From: Nitrosococcus wardiae
Lineage (GTDB): Bacteria; Pseudomonadota; Gammaproteobacteria; Nitrosococcales; Nitrosococcaceae
Assembly: GCF_004421105.1 (NCBI RefSeq)
Contig: NZ_CP038033.1
Coordinates: 949,659-1,013,658, forward strand
Direction: 5' to 3'
DNA: 64,000 bases
A program made the position numbers and the translations under genes. The notes under the pieces are model-generated. The model worked only from the letters and a program-made list of their open reading frames with translations, was not told the DNA's origin and did not search any database. Numbering within the stretch: position 1 is the stretch's first letter; every line of letters starts with the position of its first letter. Positions 52,207 to 60,897 of the stretch are shown here, piece after piece.

Positions 52207-52235
52207 ATGTCATCAATCATTCATAATTTTGTCAT
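52207..52235 (+). promoter_or_regulatory. PHO-box-like direct repeats upstream of TonB operon
   Basis: Three 7-base half-sites on an exact 11-bp period: ATGTCAT (52207), CATTCAT (52218), TTGTCAT (52229). The E. coli PhoB half-site is CTGTCAT at 11-bp spacing; two of the three here match at 6 of 7 and one at 5 of 7. It is 59 bp before the start of the DUF3450 gene, a suitable place for activation. Visual match only; no score. Confidence 0.5.
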
Positions 52236-52293
52236 CTTTGTTTTTTACCATGTCGCTTCTTTCAATTCAGGTGTCAACAACGCTGGATATTTA

Positions 52294-53067
52294 ATGATTC
52301 CTTTTTCTTCTATTGCTGCAGCATTGCCTAGAGTCGCATTTTTAGTCGGATGCTTCCTGCTTTGGAGTGGTGTCCAGGCGGATAGCCTAGACAATTTGGC
52401 AGAGGAGCTTATCCGCATGCGCAGCGAAGTTGAAGAGCTGCAGAGTCAGCTTGATCTAGAAAAAGAAAAACATAAGAACCGCATGGAGGTTTTGTCCTCT
52501 CAGTTGGCTGAGTTGAGCACTGAAAACCGGCGTTTGTCTTTATCAGTGGAGCAATTGCATCAAACTTTTGAAGAACACAGGCAGCAGCTAAGTCATAGAC
52601 AATCAGGGGAGACGGAACTTTTACCAGTCATGCTTAAGGCAGTTGATTATCTGCAAGATTATGTACGGACTGGACTCCCGTTTAAAGTCGAGGGTCGTCT
52701 GAGGGAACTAGAACAATTGCATACTCAATTGAAGACCGGTGTTTTAGACCCGAAAAAATCTGCTAACCGCATTTGGGCATTTATTGAAGATGAAGTCCGG
52801 CTGAGTAAAGAAAATGGAATCTACCGCCAAACCATTCAACTGGACGGTGAAAACAACCTCGCTGAGGTGGCTAAAATCGGCATGATGTTGCTCTTTTTCC
52901 AGACCGAGGATAGCCGGGTGGGAATGGCGCAACAGGACAAAGATCATTGGCGTTTCGTGGTAATGGACACAGAACAAGACCGCAAACATATTGTTCAGCT
53001 TTTCGATTCCCTCAAGAAGCAAATCCGGCAAGGATATTTTGAATTGCCTAACCCCCTCGAGTCATGA
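52294..53067 (+). CDS. DUF3450 family periplasmic coiled-coil protein
   Basis: A 257-aa exported protein, first gene of the TonB operon. Seen: signal peptide (hydrophobic core about 10-25, QA-D cleavage near 28), a long coiled coil (about 32-110, many EEL/EVE/QLA heptads), then a globular part with RTGLPFKVEGRLRELEQLH and KIGMMLLFFQTED. The DUF3450-ttpC-exbB-exbD-tonB-TPR order is conserved in TonB2-type loci. The ATG used gives a signal peptide; the longer frame does not. Confidence 0.85.
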   Translation: MIPFSSIAAALPRVAFLVGCFLLWSGVQADSLDNLAEELIRMRSEVEELQSQLDLEKEKHKNRMEVLSSQLAELSTENRRLSLSVEQLHQTFEEHRQQLSHRQSGETELLPVMLKAVDYLQDYVRTGLPFKVEGRLRELEQLHTQLKTGVLDPKKSANRIWAFIEDEVRLSKENGIYRQTIQLDGENNLAEVAKIGMMLLFFQTEDSRVGMAQQDKDHWRFVVMDTEQDRKHIVQLFDSLKKQIRQGYFELPNPLES

Positions 53068-54557
53068 TGAGTATTCGGTCTTTTTTTATCTGCCTGATGA
53101 TGCTATGGGTCATCGCTAACAGTGCTGTGGTCCAGTCCGAGGACAATTCTTCTATCCCTAGAGTTGCCGGACAGCCGGAGGAAAACTCCCCTGAGCAATC
53201 GTCATTACCTGCTCAAAAACCTACTGAGTTAGAAACCTTAGAAGCAGCCTATAAGCGAGAATTTGCTTTCCTCCAATCTCAAAAGCGGGAACTCGAACAG
53301 CGCATCGATAATTTTCGTCAAAAGAGTCAAGCTAGCGAGCGGCAATTGGAAGGAAATATCCGCTCCCTAGAGCAGAAGAATGTCTCTTTAACCGCCGAGG
53401 CCGACCGCCTGAATCGAAGTATCGAGCAGGTGGAACGGCGTAGCGAGGCCGCCCGGGAGCGCAACGAATTGTTGCAAATGACCTTTAAGCAAGCAAACGC
53501 CACTTTGGAAAGTTATGGTTTCAAGCTTCAATCTCAGGCCCAGTTTGAGCAGGCCGCTCCAGAGAAAAAACTTGCATTTTTGTTCGGGCAAGGTCTGAGA
53601 CTGTTGCGCCAAGTGGGACAGGTCCAACGGACTCAGGATAAATTTTTTCTTGGCGATGGCACGGAAGCCGAAGGAACAGTGATTCGTTTCGGTAATATTG
53701 CTGCTTACGGGGTAAGCCCTCAGGGCGCCGGTATTCTTGTGCCTGCCGGCGGTGAACAGTTCAAGATGTGGTCGCAGCCAGCTCCGGAAGTGGCCAAGAC
53801 ATTGGCAGCAGGGCAACAACCGCCGACTCTGAAAATCTTTTTATTCGAATCCCAGGATCAAGCCATTGAGGAGAAAGCTGAAAAAACCCTCTTAGTGACC
53901 ATCAATGAAGGGGGGCCGGTTGCTTGGGTGATCATGGGACTGGGAGGAGTGGCGTTATTGCTGATACTTCTGCGGGTACTGTTCTTAAGCGGAGCAAGCG
54001 CCAATACCCGTCGCTTGACTCAGCAAGTCAATGATCTTATCCAACAGGGAAAGCATCAGCAGGCCCAAGAACTTTGCCAGCAGACTCGGGGGGCTATTGC
54101 CCGAGTAATGGCGGCAACTATTCGTAATTTGGATCGGGACCGGCCTCATTTGGAGGACATCATCTCCGAGGCTATTTTGCATGAATCAGCCCACCTTAAT
54201 CGCTTCGGATCGGTGATTTTGATCATTGCTGCCATTTCGCCGCTCCTGGGGCTATTGGGAACAGTGACCGGCATGATTTCCACCTTTGATATTATCACCG
54301 AATTTGGGACCGGCGATCCTAAACTCCTGTCCAGTGGTATTTCCATTGCCTTGATCACCACCGAAGTCGGCTTGGCGGTGGCTATTCCTACCCTGTTCGT
54401 GGGTACGCTCCTGTCGAGCTGGGCGGAACGAATCAAGGATAACATGGAAAAGGCCGCCTTGCGCGTCACCAATATTTCCCAAGTAGATAAAAAAGTAGAA
54501 CCGGCATCGGCGGCAAGCGCCGAACCTGAAGGTCCTCTCGCCTACTCCGCAGTGTGA
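53064..54557 (+). CDS. TtpC-like MotA/TolQ/ExbB-family protein with periplasmic coiled-coil extension
   Basis: A 497-aa energiser component. Seen: signal peptide, coiled coil (about 55-150), a globular periplasmic part (DFRFGNIAAYGVSPQ-like, near 200-270), then the proton-channel domain with membrane helices near 290-315, 375-400 and 420-445 (GSVILIIAAISPLLGLLGTVTGMI). This is the arrangement of TtpC from Vibrio TonB2 systems, in which TtpC is a fourth partner of the TonB complex. Start overlaps the previous stop (ATGATGA). Confidence 0.85.
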   Translation: MMSIRSFFICLMMLWVIANSAVVQSEDNSSIPRVAGQPEENSPEQSSLPAQKPTELETLEAAYKREFAFLQSQKRELEQRIDNFRQKSQASERQLEGNIRSLEQKNVSLTAEADRLNRSIEQVERRSEAARERNELLQMTFKQANATLESYGFKLQSQAQFEQAAPEKKLAFLFGQGLRLLRQVGQVQRTQDKFFLGDGTEAEGTVIRFGNIAAYGVSPQGAGILVPAGGEQFKMWSQPAPEVAKTLAAGQQPPTLKIFLFESQDQAIEEKAEKTLLVTINEGGPVAWVIMGLGGVALLLILLRVLFLSGASANTRRLTQQVNDLIQQGKHQQAQELCQQTRGAIARVMAATIRNLDRDRPHLEDIISEAILHESAHLNRFGSVILIIAAISPLLGLLGTVTGMISTFDIITEFGTGDPKLLSSGISIALITTEVGLAVAIPTLFVGTLLSSWAERIKDNMEKAALRVTNISQVDKKVEPASAASAEPEGPLAYSAV

Positions 54558-55204
54558 TTCATAGGCTTAACGAAGCGATGAATTTTTCCGAGATTTGGGA
54601 AGCAGGGAGTCATTTCTATCAAGCGGGCGGCTATGTGATGCCTCCCTTGATGGTGGCGACCTTACTGTTGTGGTTTGCTATCGGTTATCGCTTTTGGATC
54701 TTGCGCCGAGGGACCGTCTTGAGTGTGAGGGAATGCCTCTGTCGACTCCAGGAAGAGCCCCACCATCAGCCTCAGGGAATGATTGAGCACATGATTGTCC
54801 AGGGGTTGGCCATTGCTAGAACCCGTCCGCCTTATTTGCGGCGTCATCTAGACGAAGTATTTGCTGCTCAGGAGCAAGAGCTGAAGAAGTTTGCCACGCT
54901 CATCCGAAGTATCGTGGTGATTGCGCCTCTGCTCGGGCTTTTGGGAACGGTGGTGGGCATGATTGAAACTTTTGAATCCTTGGCGGATATGGCCCTGTTC
55001 ACCCAGTCAGGAGGGATTGCAGGAGGAATTTCTCAAGCCCTGTTTACAACCCAGATGGGATTGGTGGTCGCTATTCCAGGATTACTTATCAAAGGACTGC
55101 TGGATAGGAAGCAGAAGCAGTTAGAAATGGAATTTGCCCAGATTAAAGACCTACTTTGCAGTGACACATTTTCATCAGCCACTCAGGCAGCATCTAATTT
55201 CTAG
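54554..55204 (+). CDS. exbB: ExbB-type proton-channel protein
   Basis: Three-helix MotA/TolQ/ExbB protein (216 aa). Seen: first helix YVMPPLMVATLLLWFAIGYRFWIL, then IRSIVVIAPLLGLLGTVVGMIETFESLA with the channel-lining Gly-rich pattern and third helix GLVVAIPGLLIKGLL. Start is GTG overlapping the ttpC stop (GTGA); an ATG 24 bp further in is the alternative. With ExbD it would power TonB by proton motive force. Confidence 0.92.
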   Translation: MIHRLNEAMNFSEIWEAGSHFYQAGGYVMPPLMVATLLLWFAIGYRFWILRRGTVLSVRECLCRLQEEPHHQPQGMIEHMIVQGLAIARTRPPYLRRHLDEVFAAQEQELKKFATLIRSIVVIAPLLGLLGTVVGMIETFESLADMALFTQSGGIAGGISQALFTTQMGLVVAIPGLLIKGLLDRKQKQLEMEFAQIKDLLCSDTFSSATQAASNF

Positions 55205-55210
55205 TTAAAT

Positions 55211-55615
55211 ATGCGATACCGGGAACGCAAAGAAGATTCCAGCACCATCGATATCTCGCCGCTTATCGATATCGTGTTTATTTTGCTGATTTTTTTTATG
55301 GTCAGCACGACCTTCATCAAAGACATGCAGCTGGAGCTGAATCGACCCAATGCCTCCAGTGCTTCATTGGCTTCCACCAAGGCGATTCGCCTTTACATCG
55401 ATCAAAGTGGCGAAACCTATCTCGATGGCGAGCCCATCCGCTTGTGGCTAATCCAAAGCAAGCTCAGGGATATGCTTAAAACCACGACCTCAAAAACCGT
55501 GCTCGTGGTGACGGACGACGGGGTGCCTGCCGGTAAGTTGGTGGAGGTTGTGGATCAAGCCCGCCTGGCTGGCGCCCAGGATGTAGGGGTGGCCACCGAG
55601 CGAGAAGCGGGTTGA
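55211..55615 (+). CDS. exbD: ExbD-type biopolymer transport protein
   Basis: Small bitopic protein (134 aa). Seen: single membrane helix with the essential Asp in ISPLIDIVFILLIFFMV (about 16-33), then a periplasmic domain with LYIDQSGETYLDGEPI. Six bp after exbB and almost touching tonB. Standard partner of ExbB and TonB. Confidence 0.92.
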   Translation: MRYRERKEDSSTIDISPLIDIVFILLIFFMVSTTFIKDMQLELNRPNASSASLASTKAIRLYIDQSGETYLDGEPIRLWLIQSKLRDMLKTTTSKTVLVVTDDGVPAGKLVEVVDQARLAGAQDVGVATEREAG

Positions 55616-55629
55616 CGGGATGGGCAACG

Positions 55630-56265
55630 ATGAACAGTGGGGCAGGGAAATACCTGGCGGCGGTGATTTCCATGATGGTAGGGGGCACCTTGGTCTTTGG
55701 GTTAGTGATTTTGATGAATCGTCTTGCCCCCCAAGTGGAAAAGCCGCCAACTCCGGAAGCGAGAAATTTAGCGGTAGTTAAGCAACCTAAACCCAAACCT
55801 AAGAAAGAGATCAAGCGGCAAAAGCCTAAACCTAAACCGAGGCGCGTCACCCCGCCTGCTCCTTTGGCAGGACTCGATTCCGCCCTATCTGGTATTGACC
55901 TGGGACTGCCTGGTTTAGCGACTGATGATTTGAGCGATCTCAACGATCAACTCCTGGGCAATACCCAAGTGGGGGTGATGACGGAGGATTCAGTGGATGT
56001 TCCGCCCCGCCCTCTATCTCGCGGATCGTTTAAATATCCTCGCAATGCTAAAAAGCGAGGCATCACCGGGTATGTGGTCCTTTCCCTGTTGATTGACGAA
56101 GATGGAGAAGTGGTCCAAGTGAAAGTCTTGGAGGCCTCTCCGAGCGGGATTTTTGATGCTTCGGCGGTGACCGGGATTAAGCAATGGCAATTTGAACCAG
56201 CGAAATATCAGGGCAAGAAGGTAAAAACCTGGGCCAAACAGAAAATTAAATTTGATTTGGGCTAA
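55630..56265 (+). CDS. tonB: TonB protein
   Basis: Energy-transducing protein (211 aa) that contacts outer-membrane receptors. Seen: N-terminal helix (about 5-30), Pro/Lys-rich spacer (KPKPKKEIKRQKPKPKPRR near 60-85), and C-terminal TonB domain with FKYPRNAKKRGITGYVVLSL and a GIKQWQFEPAKYQGKK end. ATG used; a TTG 18 bp earlier is in frame and overlaps exbD. Compact TonB2-like size. Confidence 0.9.
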   Translation: MNSGAGKYLAAVISMMVGGTLVFGLVILMNRLAPQVEKPPTPEARNLAVVKQPKPKPKKEIKRQKPKPKPRRVTPPAPLAGLDSALSGIDLGLPGLATDDLSDLNDQLLGNTQVGVMTEDSVDVPPRPLSRGSFKYPRNAKKRGITGYVVLSLLIDEDGEVVQVKVLEASPSGIFDASAVTGIKQWQFEPAKYQGKKVKTWAKQKIKFDLG

Positions 56266-56307
56266 TGCGAGTAGCGCTTTGACCATGTGCCGGAATGCAA
56301 ATTGAGC

Positions 56308-57489
56308 ATGAGCAGAAAGATTTCTCCCCTCTCTATGTTGGTCCTGCTAGTGGCGGTGCTGTGGCTCGGGGTGACTTTTAGCCTTGCCGCCAAGGAAAAG
56401 GAAAAGCCCGATCCTGCAGAAACGGATTTTCTCGCCTTAGCGGCAATGCTGCTCAAGGATGGCCATTCTCTCCGCGCTCTGACCACCTTAAATCAAGTGG
56501 ACCCGGAAGCGGAGGAGTTGGACCGGGGGCGGTTTTATACCCTCAAGGGGTTGGCTCAGCTCAATCTTCAACAGGAAATCGAGGCCAAGGAAAGTTTCCA
56601 ACAGGCGTTGGCCCATGGTCAGACTGAGCCGATTATCCATGTTTACCTCGCCCAGGCCCACTATGCCCTCAAAGAGTACCGCGAAACCGTTGCTGCCATT
56701 GAGCAAGCGGGGACCGTGATCCATCAATATCCGGCCCTCTATGAAATGAAAGCCCAGAGTTACTGGCTGCTGGGAGAGCAGAATGCAGCCTGGCGTACTT
56801 TAAGCGTTGCCCACAAGGCCTTTCCTGAAGATTACCGTTTCCTGCGCCGGCAAGTATTTTACCTCTTGGATCTGAAACTCTACCGTCAAGCTGCAGAATT
56901 GGGGCGGCGTTATTTTGTTCAATCCCAAGCCGAGGTGGCTGATTACATGGCTATTGGCAATGCCCTTCGACTAAGTAGGCAATCTCAGGAAGCCTTGACT
57001 ATTTTGGAACAGGGGCGGTTGCTATACCCCCATCATGAAGGTCTAGCGAAGGTCCTTGCCCATACCTATTTGGATCTAGAACAGCCCTTTTCGGCGGCCT
57101 ACCTGCTAGAACAAGCAGCCCGCAATAATCCTGAATTGCTTGCCGAAGCCGCTGAACTCTATCGTCGCGCTGGCCGATTCTACCGGGCCTTAGGCCTCAA
57201 TGCAGAGATTCGCAATCAAAAGGTTAAATTCAAACAGCGGCTTTCCATTCTTCTTGCCCTCAAGCGCTATGCCCAGGCAAGTGGTATGGAAACCGACCTT
57301 TATCGAGTCGGCTTACTAAGCGACGAAAATATTCGTTATGCCATTGCCTATGCCAATTTTGCTATTGGGGATTATGAGCAAGCCGATCAGCATTTGAAGC
57401 ATATTCGCACGCCTGATTTGTTCAAAAAATCAGTGGCCCTCAGGCGGGCAATGGATGAATGTCGAGCAGAGCCGGAGCGATGCTTATAG
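56308..57489 (+). CDS. TPR-repeat periplasmic protein of TonB2-type operon
   Basis: A 393-aa helical-repeat protein. Seen: signal peptide (about 1-28), then a run of TPR-like units such as GRFYTLKGLAQLNLQ, YLAQAHYALKEY and LAHTYLDLEQPFSAAYLLEQAA spread over 60-370. In Vibrio-type TonB2 loci a TPR protein follows tonB, so it probably works with the complex. Start codon chosen for the signal peptide; a GTG 21 bp upstream is in frame. Confidence 0.82.
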   Translation: MSRKISPLSMLVLLVAVLWLGVTFSLAAKEKEKPDPAETDFLALAAMLLKDGHSLRALTTLNQVDPEAEELDRGRFYTLKGLAQLNLQQEIEAKESFQQALAHGQTEPIIHVYLAQAHYALKEYRETVAAIEQAGTVIHQYPALYEMKAQSYWLLGEQNAAWRTLSVAHKAFPEDYRFLRRQVFYLLDLKLYRQAAELGRRYFVQSQAEVADYMAIGNALRLSRQSQEALTILEQGRLLYPHHEGLAKVLAHTYLDLEQPFSAAYLLEQAARNNPELLAEAAELYRRAGRFYRALGLNAEIRNQKVKFKQRLSILLALKRYAQASGMETDLYRVGLLSDENIRYAIAYANFAIGDYEQADQHLKHIRTPDLFKKSVALRRAMDECRAEPERCL

Positions 57490-57529
57490 GAGCGTACTGA
57501 GCCGTTCCCCCATTTTCCTGAAGGCAGCC

Positions 57530-57563
57530 GTGGGGCGTGGGGCGTGGGGCGTGGGGCGTGGGC
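57530..57563. repeat. Heptamer tandem repeat (GTGGGGC)n
   Basis: Four perfect copies of GTGGGGC from 57530 to 57557 and a partial fifth ending at 57563. It lies in the 140-bp gap between the TPR gene and the receptor remnant, about 75-110 bp before the receptor start. Repeats of this kind can change copy number by slippage. Confidence 0.85.
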
Positions 57564-57994
57564 AAGAAGGTACTTCTTTCCCTAGGTCTTTAACGATCCC
57601 AAATAACAACAATAAGCTGGCATAGCCCACTGGTGATCATGCGATATTCTTTTGTTTTCCTTGCCCTGCTGATAGGGATTCCCGGTGCTGGATTCGCTGC
57701 GGACCCCGCCGAATTATCCATTTATCTTTTTCAAGAAGGCCGACCCCAGTCGGAGGTGAAACTAGTTGTGGATGGCCAGCAATCCTTAAGCAGCGACCGG
57801 GATGGCGCCATTCACCTTTTGATTGAACCGGGTTCCCACTGCTTAAGTTTTAGCCGCTCTGGGAAGAGTCTCTTCATCTATGACCTTACGGTGGTAGCAG
57901 GGGAAAATATCCGGCTGTTTATTATTTTATTGGTAAATGAAAAAAACCACGTCCTCTGGGCGTGGTCAGAGTTCAACGGCTTTGCCAGTTGAAC

Positions 57995-58058
57995 GGCTCA
58001 TTGTTACCTCTATTCCGCGTTGTCCCCACAACGCACCGAGAGGTAAGAACAATGAGCC
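57995..58058 (+). promoter_or_regulatory. Long hairpin hiding the tnpA ribosome site and start
   Basis: Arms GGCTCATTGTT (57995-58005) and AACAATGAGCC (58048-58058) perfectly complementary; inside, ACCTCT/AGAGGT and GCGTTGT/ACAACGC with a CCCC loop. The right arm holds AGAGGTAAG and the ATG of tnpA. Known for IS200: such a leader hairpin blocks read-through and translation of transposase. A second IR GTTCAAC/GTTGAAC lies just before it (57971-57994). Confidence 0.75.
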
Positions 58059-58486
58059 GTTTTCGGAAGCTATCACATACAATCTGGCACTGTCAGTATC
58101 ACATCGTATGGGTGCCGAAGTACCGTCATCGGATACTGACGGGACGGGTGGCAGAGGAAGTCGGGTGGTGCATACGCGCTTTTGCAGAGCAGCAGAAGGG
58201 GGAGGTGGTGGAGCTGAATGTCCAGTTCGATCACGTTCATTGGTTGGTATGGGTGCCCCCGAAGGTCTCGCTCTCGGATTTTGTGGGAACGGTGAAGGGA
58301 CGCACGGCGATACGGGTATTCAACAAATTCCGAGAGCTAAAGCGCCGACTGTACTGGGGTCATCGGTTTTGGGCGCGAGGGTACTGTGTAGATACGGTGG
58401 GATTGGATGAGGCGAAAATCCGCGCGTATGTGCAGTACCAAGAGAGACGAGAGCGCCGGGCAGAGCAACAAGGTCTGGATGTCTAA
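58052..58486 (+). CDS. tnpA: IS200/IS605-family transposase TnpA
   Basis: Y1 HUH single-strand transposase (144 aa). Seen: YHIVWVPKYRHRIL near 16-29, HUH motif HVHWLVWVP (His61 and His63), and the catalytic Tyr in IRAYVQYQ (Tyr126 likely). Full length. Start at ATG 58052 inside the leader hairpin; an upstream in-frame extension exists but is element sequence. Excises and inserts single-stranded DNA at hairpins. Confidence 0.95.
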   Translation: MSRFRKLSHTIWHCQYHIVWVPKYRHRILTGRVAEEVGWCIRAFAEQQKGEVVELNVQFDHVHWLVWVPPKVSLSDFVGTVKGRTAIRVFNKFRELKRRLYWGHRFWARGYCVDTVGLDEAKIRAYVQYQERRERRAEQQGLDV

Positions 58487-60241
58487 TTGATTGACGAGTG
58501 AAAGGGGGCAACTTAAGCCTTGCCTCCTCTGGGGGCAAGGCAGACTCATCCCCTTTTAGGGGTCAATACAAATCCACCCGCTCTGCGGGTGGATTCTTTA
58601 CTTGCGGATTCCAGGGAGCCTTCCATGGAAGTGGAAAGCTCCGCAGTAGGTGGCGAGAAGGTTGAATCCAAACAGGAGGTGGTGAAAGGCGAGCCGGGTT
58701 TGATCCGAGGCCGGGTGCTTTCAGCCGAAGACGGCAATCCTTTGGTGGGAGTGAAATTGTATGTGAGCGGTTTGAATCTGGAAATGACCAGTGATCAAGA
58801 GGGGACTTATCAAGCAGAATTGCCTCCAGGGGAGTACAGTGTTTCGGCGGTGACCGCCGGCTTTAATACCCAGATTCGCGATTCCATCAATTAGCAGTGG
58901 ACAATTTTCCTTTTCCCGCCGGGCAGACAGCAATCAGACGATCTTTGCCGATTTAACTGATAATGACGATACCATTCGCTTTTCCGTCAATCTGCCGTTA
59001 GAACTATTCAACCGCCTCGATCTCAATTTATCCAGTGGTTATCTTTCCCGGCAGCGTGAACGGGAGTCGGAAATCCGCCGTTTTGATTTTGCCCAGTTCG
59101 GTCCTAAATCCCGGGATCCGGAAATTCTTGCCCTTTCTTCCCTGGAAGATATCTTGTCCCCAGAAAATATTGGGGTTGAGGGATTTCAACTCCGCGAAGC
59201 CACCCGCCCAACCGATAATTATGAAGCCATCCAAGAGTTAGAGGCTTATTTTAGCCAAATTGATGCCAATTTTTTTGATCGGCTACGTTTGGCGGGGGGG
59301 GTGCGGGTGGAAGACAATCGCCAGAGCGTCAAAACCTTCGCTTTGTTCAATCCTAATCAGGAGCCTATTGAGTCAGTGCTCAGTAGCGTCGATCTACTGC
59401 GTGCCGTGGCGGCCACTTATTTCCTGAGTGAGCAACAGCTATAGTGAGACCCTTTCCCGTCCCGACTTTAGGGAGCTTTCCCCAGCACCGTTCATCGATC
59501 CGGAATCTGATGCAGAAACCGTGGGCAATCCAGATCTCCAGCAGATTTTTATCACGAGCTACGATTTACGCTGGGAGTACTACTTCTCGCCTAGTGAACA
59601 TATGTCGGCTGCCTTTTTCTGGAAGGATATCCAAAGCCCCATTGAAAAAATTCTTCTGCCGGGTCCCGCTGGACTGCTGACTTTGGAGAATGCCGAAACG
59701 GCCAATGTTTGGGGAATTGAACTGGAATTGATGAAATATTTGGATTTTATCCATCCTCGTCTAGAGCATTTTTATTTCGGCGGCAATGTCACCTATACCC
59801 AGTCGGAAATCCAACTCAAGCCAGAGGATTTGGCTGTGCAAACCACTGGTCAGCGGCCATTCCAAGGGCATTCCCCCTATTGTTAATGCGCAGATTGGCT
59901 ATGACAATCCCGCTCGGGGCATTGTCGCCACCCTGCTCTACAATACTTCCGGCGAGCGCATTATTGAAGTAGGAACTTTAGGGGCACCGGATAAATACGA
60001 GCAGCCCTTCCATCAATTGGATTTCGTGTATCGTCACCAATTTGGCGATCACTGGCGGTTGAATTTAAAAATGAGAAATCTCTTAGATGATGAAATAGAG
60101 GTACTGCAGGGAGATAAGGTGACTCGTGCTTTCCGTCCGGGGCGGGAGTTTAGCATTGGTTTTACGTGGGACTTTTAAGGCCGGTGAACGTGGCTCCATG
60201 TTGGCAAAGCTCGGCTTTCTCTCTCAGCGATTGTCGCTATT

Positions 60242-60281
60242 TTGTCATCTTTCTGTCATCTGAATTTAAAAATACTGTCAT
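60242..60281 (+). promoter_or_regulatory. PHO-box-like array upstream of secreted-protein gene
   Basis: TTGTCAT (60242), CTGTCAT (60253) and CTGTCAT (60275): spacings 11 and 22 bp, so all on one helical face. Two match the E. coli PhoB half-site exactly. A -10-like TAAACT lies 10 bp after the last half-site, a normal PhoB-promoter geometry. It is 55 bp before the start codon of the secreted protein. No score computed. Confidence 0.6.
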
Positions 60282-60336: not shown

Positions 60337-60897
60337 ATGAAACGAACGAATACTCTCCGCAAGATGATTATCCCTGCTGCCTTGATTGGGGGATTAGGCA
60401 TGGGATCAGCATACGCCATCAATGTTGAGAATGTTGATGGTACGCTTACTGGTAATTGGTGGGAAGGCCCAGAAAAATCTGGCCGTGGTTTGCTCTTAGA
60501 GGTGACGGAGGCGGACACGGGCAATGTGTTGGTTGTGAACTGGTTCACCTACGATGACGGTGGCAATCAAATCTGGCTGAACGGTGCCGCGCCTGTTGAC
60601 AGGGGGTCTAACTCTGTCACTGTACCTCTTATCCGCAAGGAAGGCGGTCAATTTGGCCCCAATTTCCAGGCTGACCAGGCCAGCGCTATCGATTGGGGGG
60701 AAGCCACCTTCACTTTTGAATCTTGTAATCAAGGGACAGTCGATTTTAATGGCCTAGATGGCACCGGTACTTTTGAAATCCAAAATTTAACTCGCCCCCA
60801 AGGCATTACTTGTGTCATTGAAGAGGTCGACTTTATTGGTGCTTTCCGAGATCGCAATGATGATTGGACTCAGGATTGGACTATTGGCCTCGATTAA
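60337..60897 (+). CDS. Secreted protein of unknown function with WW-G-type motif
   Basis: A 186-aa protein with signal peptide (MKRTNTLRK, hydrophobic core, SAYA-I cleavage near 27). The mature part has GNWWEGPEKSGRGLLLEVTE and VVNWFTYDDGGNQIWLNG, a motif pair I recognise from secreted or surface proteins of gammaproteobacteria (xWWxPxxSGxG...WFTYDxxGxxxWL). Two Cys (CNQG, TCVIEE) may form a disulphide. Function unknown. It lies under the PHO-box-like array and after the TonB receptor remnant, suggesting phosphate-starvation expression. Confidence 0.75.
   Translation: MKRTNTLRKMIIPAALIGGLGMGSAYAINVENVDGTLTGNWWEGPEKSGRGLLLEVTEADTGNVLVVNWFTYDDGGNQIWLNGAAPVDRGSNSVTVPLIRKEGGQFGPNFQADQASAIDWGEATFTFESCNQGTVDFNGLDGTGTFEIQNLTRPQGITCVIEEVDFIGAFRDRNDDWTQDWTIGLD

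Follow-up and report, generated by a model that had tools for sequence, protein, structure and literature searches.

Outer-membrane receptors and ElpS-like proteins that respond to phosphate starvation are widespread and have no known substrate. In Caulobacter, ElpS (CC0170) is described as specifically upregulated by phosphate starvation and unaffected by iron, and its gene is found in the arrangement elpS, CC0171, gspC-N (PMC2996285); TonB receptors with a proposed role in the import of alternative phosphate donors also belong to the PhoB regulon of Caulobacter (PMC11208175). In Flavobacterium, the lipoproteins FI and FII are induced by phosphate depletion, are encoded in clusters with TonB-dependent transporters, and share 31-36% identity with the Caulobacter protein at 50-54% coverage (PMC8115612). 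Among TonB energisers of the Ttp type, the TonB2 operon of Vibrio vulnificus is reported to carry a Fur box and to serve iron-siderophore transport (PMC6957404), whilst Teredinibacter TonB2 also serves carbohydrate use and the function of vibrio TonB3 is given as unknown (PMC10734418). In this work, we characterized a 64,000-nt stretch of the Nitrosococcus wardiae genome (contig NZ_CP038033.1, positions 949,659 to 1,013,658), hereafter the window, in which two arrays resembling PHO boxes precede a Ttp-type TonB operon and the gene of a secreted protein.

Our results are consistent with a PhoB-controlled Ttp-type TonB module that includes an ElpS/receptor pair and is degenerate in the window genome, a reading to which we assign, from sequence features, a probability of about 0.78. 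Array 1 (52207..52235, + strand) consists of three half-sites at period 11, ATGTCAT (52207), CATTCAT (52218) and TTGTCAT (52229), located upstream of a ttpB-type gene, 58 bp from its likely ATG (52294) or 71 bp according to the other start estimate; a longer ttpB reading frame from TTG 52150 would span the array, and in the congeneric genome G001 this frame has no start codon so far upstream. Array 2 (60231..60281, + strand), upstream of the secreted-protein gene, comprises five positions at the same period, TTGTCGC (60231), TTGTCAT (60242), CTGTCAT (60253), the degenerate ATTTAAA (60264) and CTGTCAT (60275). The positions of these arrays, proposed in an initial annotation together with their 11-bp spacing, were confirmed, and the two perfect CTGTCAT sites that it reported (60253 and 60275) are real. 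The arrays most likely correspond to PHO boxes, as predicted from the following comparisons. Simple motif counts were uninformative, the signal lying in three units at period 11: within the window, neither single CTGTCAT (5 observed vs 6.06 expected) was enriched nor, clearly, CTGTCAT-N4-CTGTCAT with up to three mismatches (6 vs 3.73). With a three-unit PhoB matrix, the kind of scan suggested by the initial annotation, the arrays scored 28.5 and 26.7, like the same-genome references pstS (28.4) and an array facing oprP (26.8), the best other site in the window reaching 12.1. Over the 4,022,640-bp genome, TGTCAT-N5-TGTCAT-N5-TGTCAT with up to three mismatches gave 9 matches in 7 places, with 1 for the reversed control; array 2 alone supplied three of the nine, in successive registers. 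Ranked by mismatches, pstS came first (1) and both window arrays tied in second position (2 each); the 7 places further include sites at oprP and at an acyltransferase gene. The exact form TGTCAT-N5-TGTCAT was present four times genome-wide, namely in the window (60243), at oprP/phoB, at phoR-pstS and beside a patatin gene, and the genes adjoining the reference sites encode Porin_O_P, response-regulator, PhoR and PBP_like_2 domains.

Outside the window, the patatin site (L039, G000:C1:3500715-3500731) is upstream of the patatin-like phospholipase gene and oriented away from it. A PHO-like array (three-unit score 24.6) also precedes an Acetyltransf_5/GNAT gene (L040, G000:C1:1233872-1233910), whose product resembles the ornithine-lipid enzyme OlsB.

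The six genes following array 1, all on the + strand, display the order ttpB(DUF3450)-ttpC-exbB-exbD-tonB-ttpD(TPR): a ttpB-type gene (52294..53067; Pfam DUF3450, 7e-46), a ttpC-type gene for a long MotA/TolQ/ExbB protein (53064..54557; MotA_ExbB), exbB (54554..55204; MotA_ExbB), exbD (55211..55615; ExbD), tonB (55612..56265; TonB_C) and a ttpD-type gene for a TPR protein (56287..57489; TPR-type Pfam matches). This order is identical to that described for V. vulnificus TonB2 (ttpB2-ttpC2-exbB2-exbD2-tonB2-ttpD2), with DUF3450 first and TPR last, but the operon of V. vulnificus has a Fur box (PMC6957404), whereas that of the window is preceded by PHO boxes and lacks a Fur box. All six genes are full length, with ratios of nonsynonymous to synonymous substitution rates (dN/dS) of 0.00-0.13 against G001 (xerC, 0.14). 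Among the four genomes of the genus that were compared, only G001 shares the window-type DUF3450 gene, and its locus is intact, the same six genes being followed by those of a 1037-aa TonB-dependent receptor, with plug, barrel and carboxypeptidase-regulatory domains, and of a 565-aa secreted protein. Comparison with G001 allowed the recognition of a TonB-dependent receptor pseudogene between the two arrays of the window (57633..60178, + strand, by alignment to the intact G001 receptor), now in five pieces as a result of an insertion after about residue 100, a deletion of about 1.23 kb and two small frame-changing gaps; the inserted stretch (about 57932-58595) carries an IS200-like Y1 transposase gene (57962..58486, + strand; Pfam Y1_Tnp, 3.1e-36). 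In contrast to the intact G001 copy, no single open reading frame (ORF) with plug and barrel was found for the window receptor, and, up to E 1e-15, the G001 protein matched nothing in the window genome other than these five pieces. The receptor fragments display dN/dS values of 0.04-0.25 against G001, hence the loss may be recent. As for the secreted protein, the remnant in the window (60337..60897, + strand) retains the N-terminal ~160 and the last ~25 of 565 residues, and its main domain, the ElpS-type C-terminal beta-helix domain present in G001, is deleted. The initial annotation overlooked the receptor gene, its breakage and this truncation. In the window, the energiser genes and both promoter boxes persist, but the receptor gene no longer works and only a remnant is left of the ElpS-like protein, so that the module is degenerate there. 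Both arrays are kept in G001, where array 1 reads ATGTCAT/AGTTCAC/TCGTCAT and adjoins diverged upstream DNA, and array 2 is shorter than that of the window by exactly 11 bp; because precisely one unit is missing, the register is preserved.

The secreted protein of the window appears to resemble ElpS, the phosphate-starvation lipoprotein of Caulobacter. The link to CC0170 is by synteny in Brevundimonas, Maricaulis and others: in several Alphaproteobacteria type II secretion genes follow the ElpS-like/receptor pair, as they do in Caulobacter, although by eye they were not seen at that place in L157 (uncultured Caulobacterales). The model of the ElpS-like domain (mean predicted local distance difference test score, 90.9) matched numerous proteins with a parallel beta-helix (the best with Z 23.4 and 3.4 Å over 278 residues; Foldseek template modelling score at most 0.38), and its predicted fold appears to be common to pectate-lyase-like proteins. 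Sequence searches of PDB (up to E 1), Pfam and NCBIfam gave no match for the domain. The assignment of an activity from structure was discarded, as beta-helix matches give the fold and not the activity. Longer ElpS-like proteins (~880-1370 aa), with two beta-helix copies per frame, were also observed in L063/L090, L064, L117, L127 and other Alteromonadales.

Regarding known systems, the pair ElpS/CC0171 resembles the module in that a secreted or surface protein, in Caulobacter induced by phosphate starvation, is encoded beside a TonB-dependent receptor, and differs in that the excerpts of PMC2996285 do not mention a dedicated TonB energiser. A further difference is that ElpS is a lipoprotein, whereas the window and G001 proteins, read by eye, have no lipobox cysteine at the end of the signal peptide; many ElpS-like homologues of Alteromonadales carry one. 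The same holds for the PhoB-controlled TonB receptors of Caulobacter, which resemble the module in its proposed Pho control and for which no dedicated energiser is mentioned in the excerpts of PMC11208175. PUSIII and PUSIV of F. johnsoniae likewise combine a phosphate-depletion-induced, beta-helix-like lipoprotein with an adjacent TonB-dependent transporter, FII being located in a phoBR cluster; however, they belong to Bacteroidota, and a ttp-type TonB operon is not mentioned in the excerpts of PMC8115612. The module can be described as the ElpS/receptor pair of phosphate starvation combined with its own TonB energiser; searches of the open-licence PMC literature listed no phosphate-controlled ttp/TonB2 system.

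Conservation beyond the genus was assessed in the best 80 of 543 relatives from a search with an alignment of the ElpS-like domain. ORFs with less than 300 nt upstream and unassigned ORFs shorter than 150 aa were left out, and for this reason the 80 loci contributed only 65 ElpS-like ORFs. A two-unit score of at least 16 was found upstream of 23 of the 65 ElpS-like and 6 of the 17 DUF3450 genes, in comparison with 1/62 receptor genes, 0/82 ttpC, exbB, exbD, tonB and TPR genes, and 26/625 other ORFs, several of the latter resembling phoB, phoR, pstS, porin or ppk genes or sharing the promoter of the ElpS-like gene. Control scans for ElpS-like and DUF3450 genes, respectively, gave 2/65 and 0/17 with period 10, 3/65 and 1/17 with period 12, and 0/65 and 1/17 with the reversed matrix. 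Fisher p-values for box enrichment were 5e-13 (ElpS-like) and 8e-5 (DUF3450), both of them too small, given the relatedness of the loci. Most boxes scoring at least 14 face the gene (39/45). With arrays kept in G001 and boxes in distant loci, the lack of conservation that the initial annotation had named as a refutation was not observed. Within the class, the ElpS-like C-terminal domain was identified in 28 of 369 genomes (that of the window included through its remnant), and a receptor gene adjoins the ElpS-like gene in 18 of 30 loci, fetched with 1.5-kb flanks. Window-like DUF3450 genes, defined by a cut-off (E <1e-40) chosen after seeing the list, occur in 12 of the 369 genomes, all within those 28, and in 11 of the 12 both genes are on one contig, within ~16 kb; four genomes with weaker DUF3450 matches fall outside the 28.

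The genomic neighbourhood of the homologous loci also points to phosphate. In L105, L106 and L152, ElpS-like and receptor genes lie next to a porin gene and phoB-like genes, and in L097 next to pstS. The annotated order in the Alteromonas macleodii plasmid pBGP9 (L194, 15166-31499) begins with phoB, phoR, a phosphate-binding protein and a 2OG oxygenase, and continues with a hypothetical protein (the ElpS-like gene), a TonB-dependent receptor, DUF3450, two MotA/TolQ/ExbB proteins, ExbD, TonB and TPR. Boxes were found there before phoB (17.1), the ElpS-like gene (16.6) and DUF3450 (14.6; three-unit score 19.7, in reverse orientation), and none before the receptor (5.6) or the phosphate-binding protein (7.4). 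In a replicon of Pseudoalteromonas shioyasakiensis, where the uptake genes are ordered differently, boxes precede DUF3450 (16.9) and the ElpS-like gene (15.3). The plasmid pBGP9 has 239 kb, and a Tn3-like transposase lies close to its module, giving it the look of a mobile unit.

Several results weigh against PhoB control of the module. The PhoB matrix, with three units at period 11, was set by hand, and array 1 of G001 is weak (two-unit score 9.8, three-unit 15.3). About half of the distant loci lack a PHO box: scores below 14 were obtained upstream of 29/65 ElpS-like and 8/17 DUF3450 genes, and, although five of these eight DUF3450 loci are deltaproteobacterial, planctomycetal or unplaced, three are gammaproteobacterial; besides, the box of L120 is common to two divergent genes and was counted twice. 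In the class sample, leaving aside the window itself, a score of at least 14 was reached by 8 of the 23 ElpS-like loci and by 5 of the 9 DUF3450 loci (one borderline), with 0 for the reversed matrix in both cases. The former number derives from 30 loci, of which 6 gave no ORF and 24 were scored, one being the window, three having less than 300 nt upstream and some coming from one genome; the latter excludes the window, L181 (contig start), L182 (156 nt upstream), L191 (a second copy in one genome, with 14.5 for PHO and 14.7 for the reversed matrix) and the weak matches L187-L190, L192 (PHO 17.2) and L193. The partner receptor CC0171 is reported as constitutive (excerpts of PMC2996285). Finally, the receptor and the ElpS-like domain are lost in the window. 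Even so, Pho control is well supported on sequence grounds: the arrays match those of pstS and oprP, relatives keep them, and induction by phosphate starvation is reported for proteins of Caulobacter (PMC2996285) and Flavobacterium (PMC8115612) homologous to the secreted protein.

According to this reading, phosphorylated PhoB would bind both arrays under phosphate starvation and activate the six-gene Ttp-type TonB energiser as well as the secreted beta-helix protein of ElpS type. In relatives with an intact module, the ElpS-like protein would probably capture or free a phosphate-bearing polymer or complex at the cell surface, and the large receptor would import the phosphate-bearing ligand using the dedicated TonB complex. 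In the window genome import cannot pass through this receptor, since its gene is dead. The phosphate-starvation uptake regulon put forward in the initial annotation is supported in part: Pho control is well supported by sequence, and the uptake function fits the intact relatives and not the broken receptor of the window; as to the phytate suggested there, nothing found favours it as substrate, phytase genes not having been searched for.

The alternative that survives best is that the arrays are fossils, genuine PHO boxes of a module without remaining function in the window genome, which we regard as a possibility of roughly one in three. It would account for the multiply broken receptor gene with no second copy and for the lost main domain of the ElpS-like protein, but all six TonB-operon genes are full length under dN/dS of 0.00-0.13 and both arrays are still strong; this alternative overlaps with PhoB control of the module, since the arrays count as PHO boxes under either view. 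It is improbable that another OmpR-family regulator binds the arrays and the module answers a different signal: such regulators commonly bind direct repeats of similar period, and many receiver-domain proteins are encoded in the window genome, yet the motif of the arrays recurs there at pstS and oprP/phoB, and phoB and pst genes are neighbours of homologous loci. The least credible alternative, a Vibrio-type TonB2 system for iron or other metal under Fur with coincidental half-sites, is favoured by the gene order shared with the Fur-controlled, iron-transporting operon of V. vulnificus (excerpts of PMC6957404), but iron control of the window operon was rejected as the best Fur matches are at chance level (9/19 mismatches upstream of ttpB and 8 upstream of the secreted-protein gene; shuffled median 8), elpS is uninduced by iron depletion (excerpts of PMC2996285), and the homologue of Vibrio sp. 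THAF190c shows the opposite pattern, with a Fur-like site (4/19 mismatches) and a PHO score of only 4.5. The homologues of Salinivibrio, Photobacterium and Aeromonas are clear for neither regulator (PHO 9.3, 10.2 and 2.9; Fur mismatches 8, 6 and 7, respectively).

With PhoB control of the module as the preferred reading, we tentatively propose, at somewhat less than even odds, a portable, PhoB-driven class of TonB energisers dedicated to phosphate starvation and not to iron, which would import phosphate held in large molecules. The portable module would consist of the ElpS-like beta-helix protein, the large receptor and ttpBC-exbBD-tonB-ttpD, in some cases with phoBR and a phosphate-binding protein, and ttp clusters without an assigned function, for example vibrio TonB3, might belong to this class. 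Such a class would suggest that Ttp-type TonB systems serve more than iron and carbohydrate, providing a handle on those clusters. Together with a dedicated TonB complex, and with PHO boxes upstream of each of the two transcription units, the receptor/ElpS-like pair forms a single genetic unit amenable to deletion and assay.

A second, more distant DUF3450 gene was identified in all four genus genomes (L001 at G000:C1:653014-653730; L002-L004), with two-unit PHO scores of 8.0-10.6 (0.9-10.6 with the other start choice) and no clear PHO box; no Fur box was found upstream of it in these four genomes. After the same GGDEF gene, the other two genus genomes differ, by eye, in gene content, G002 (L053) displaying siderophore-type receptor genes and G003 (L054) transposases and other unrelated genes.

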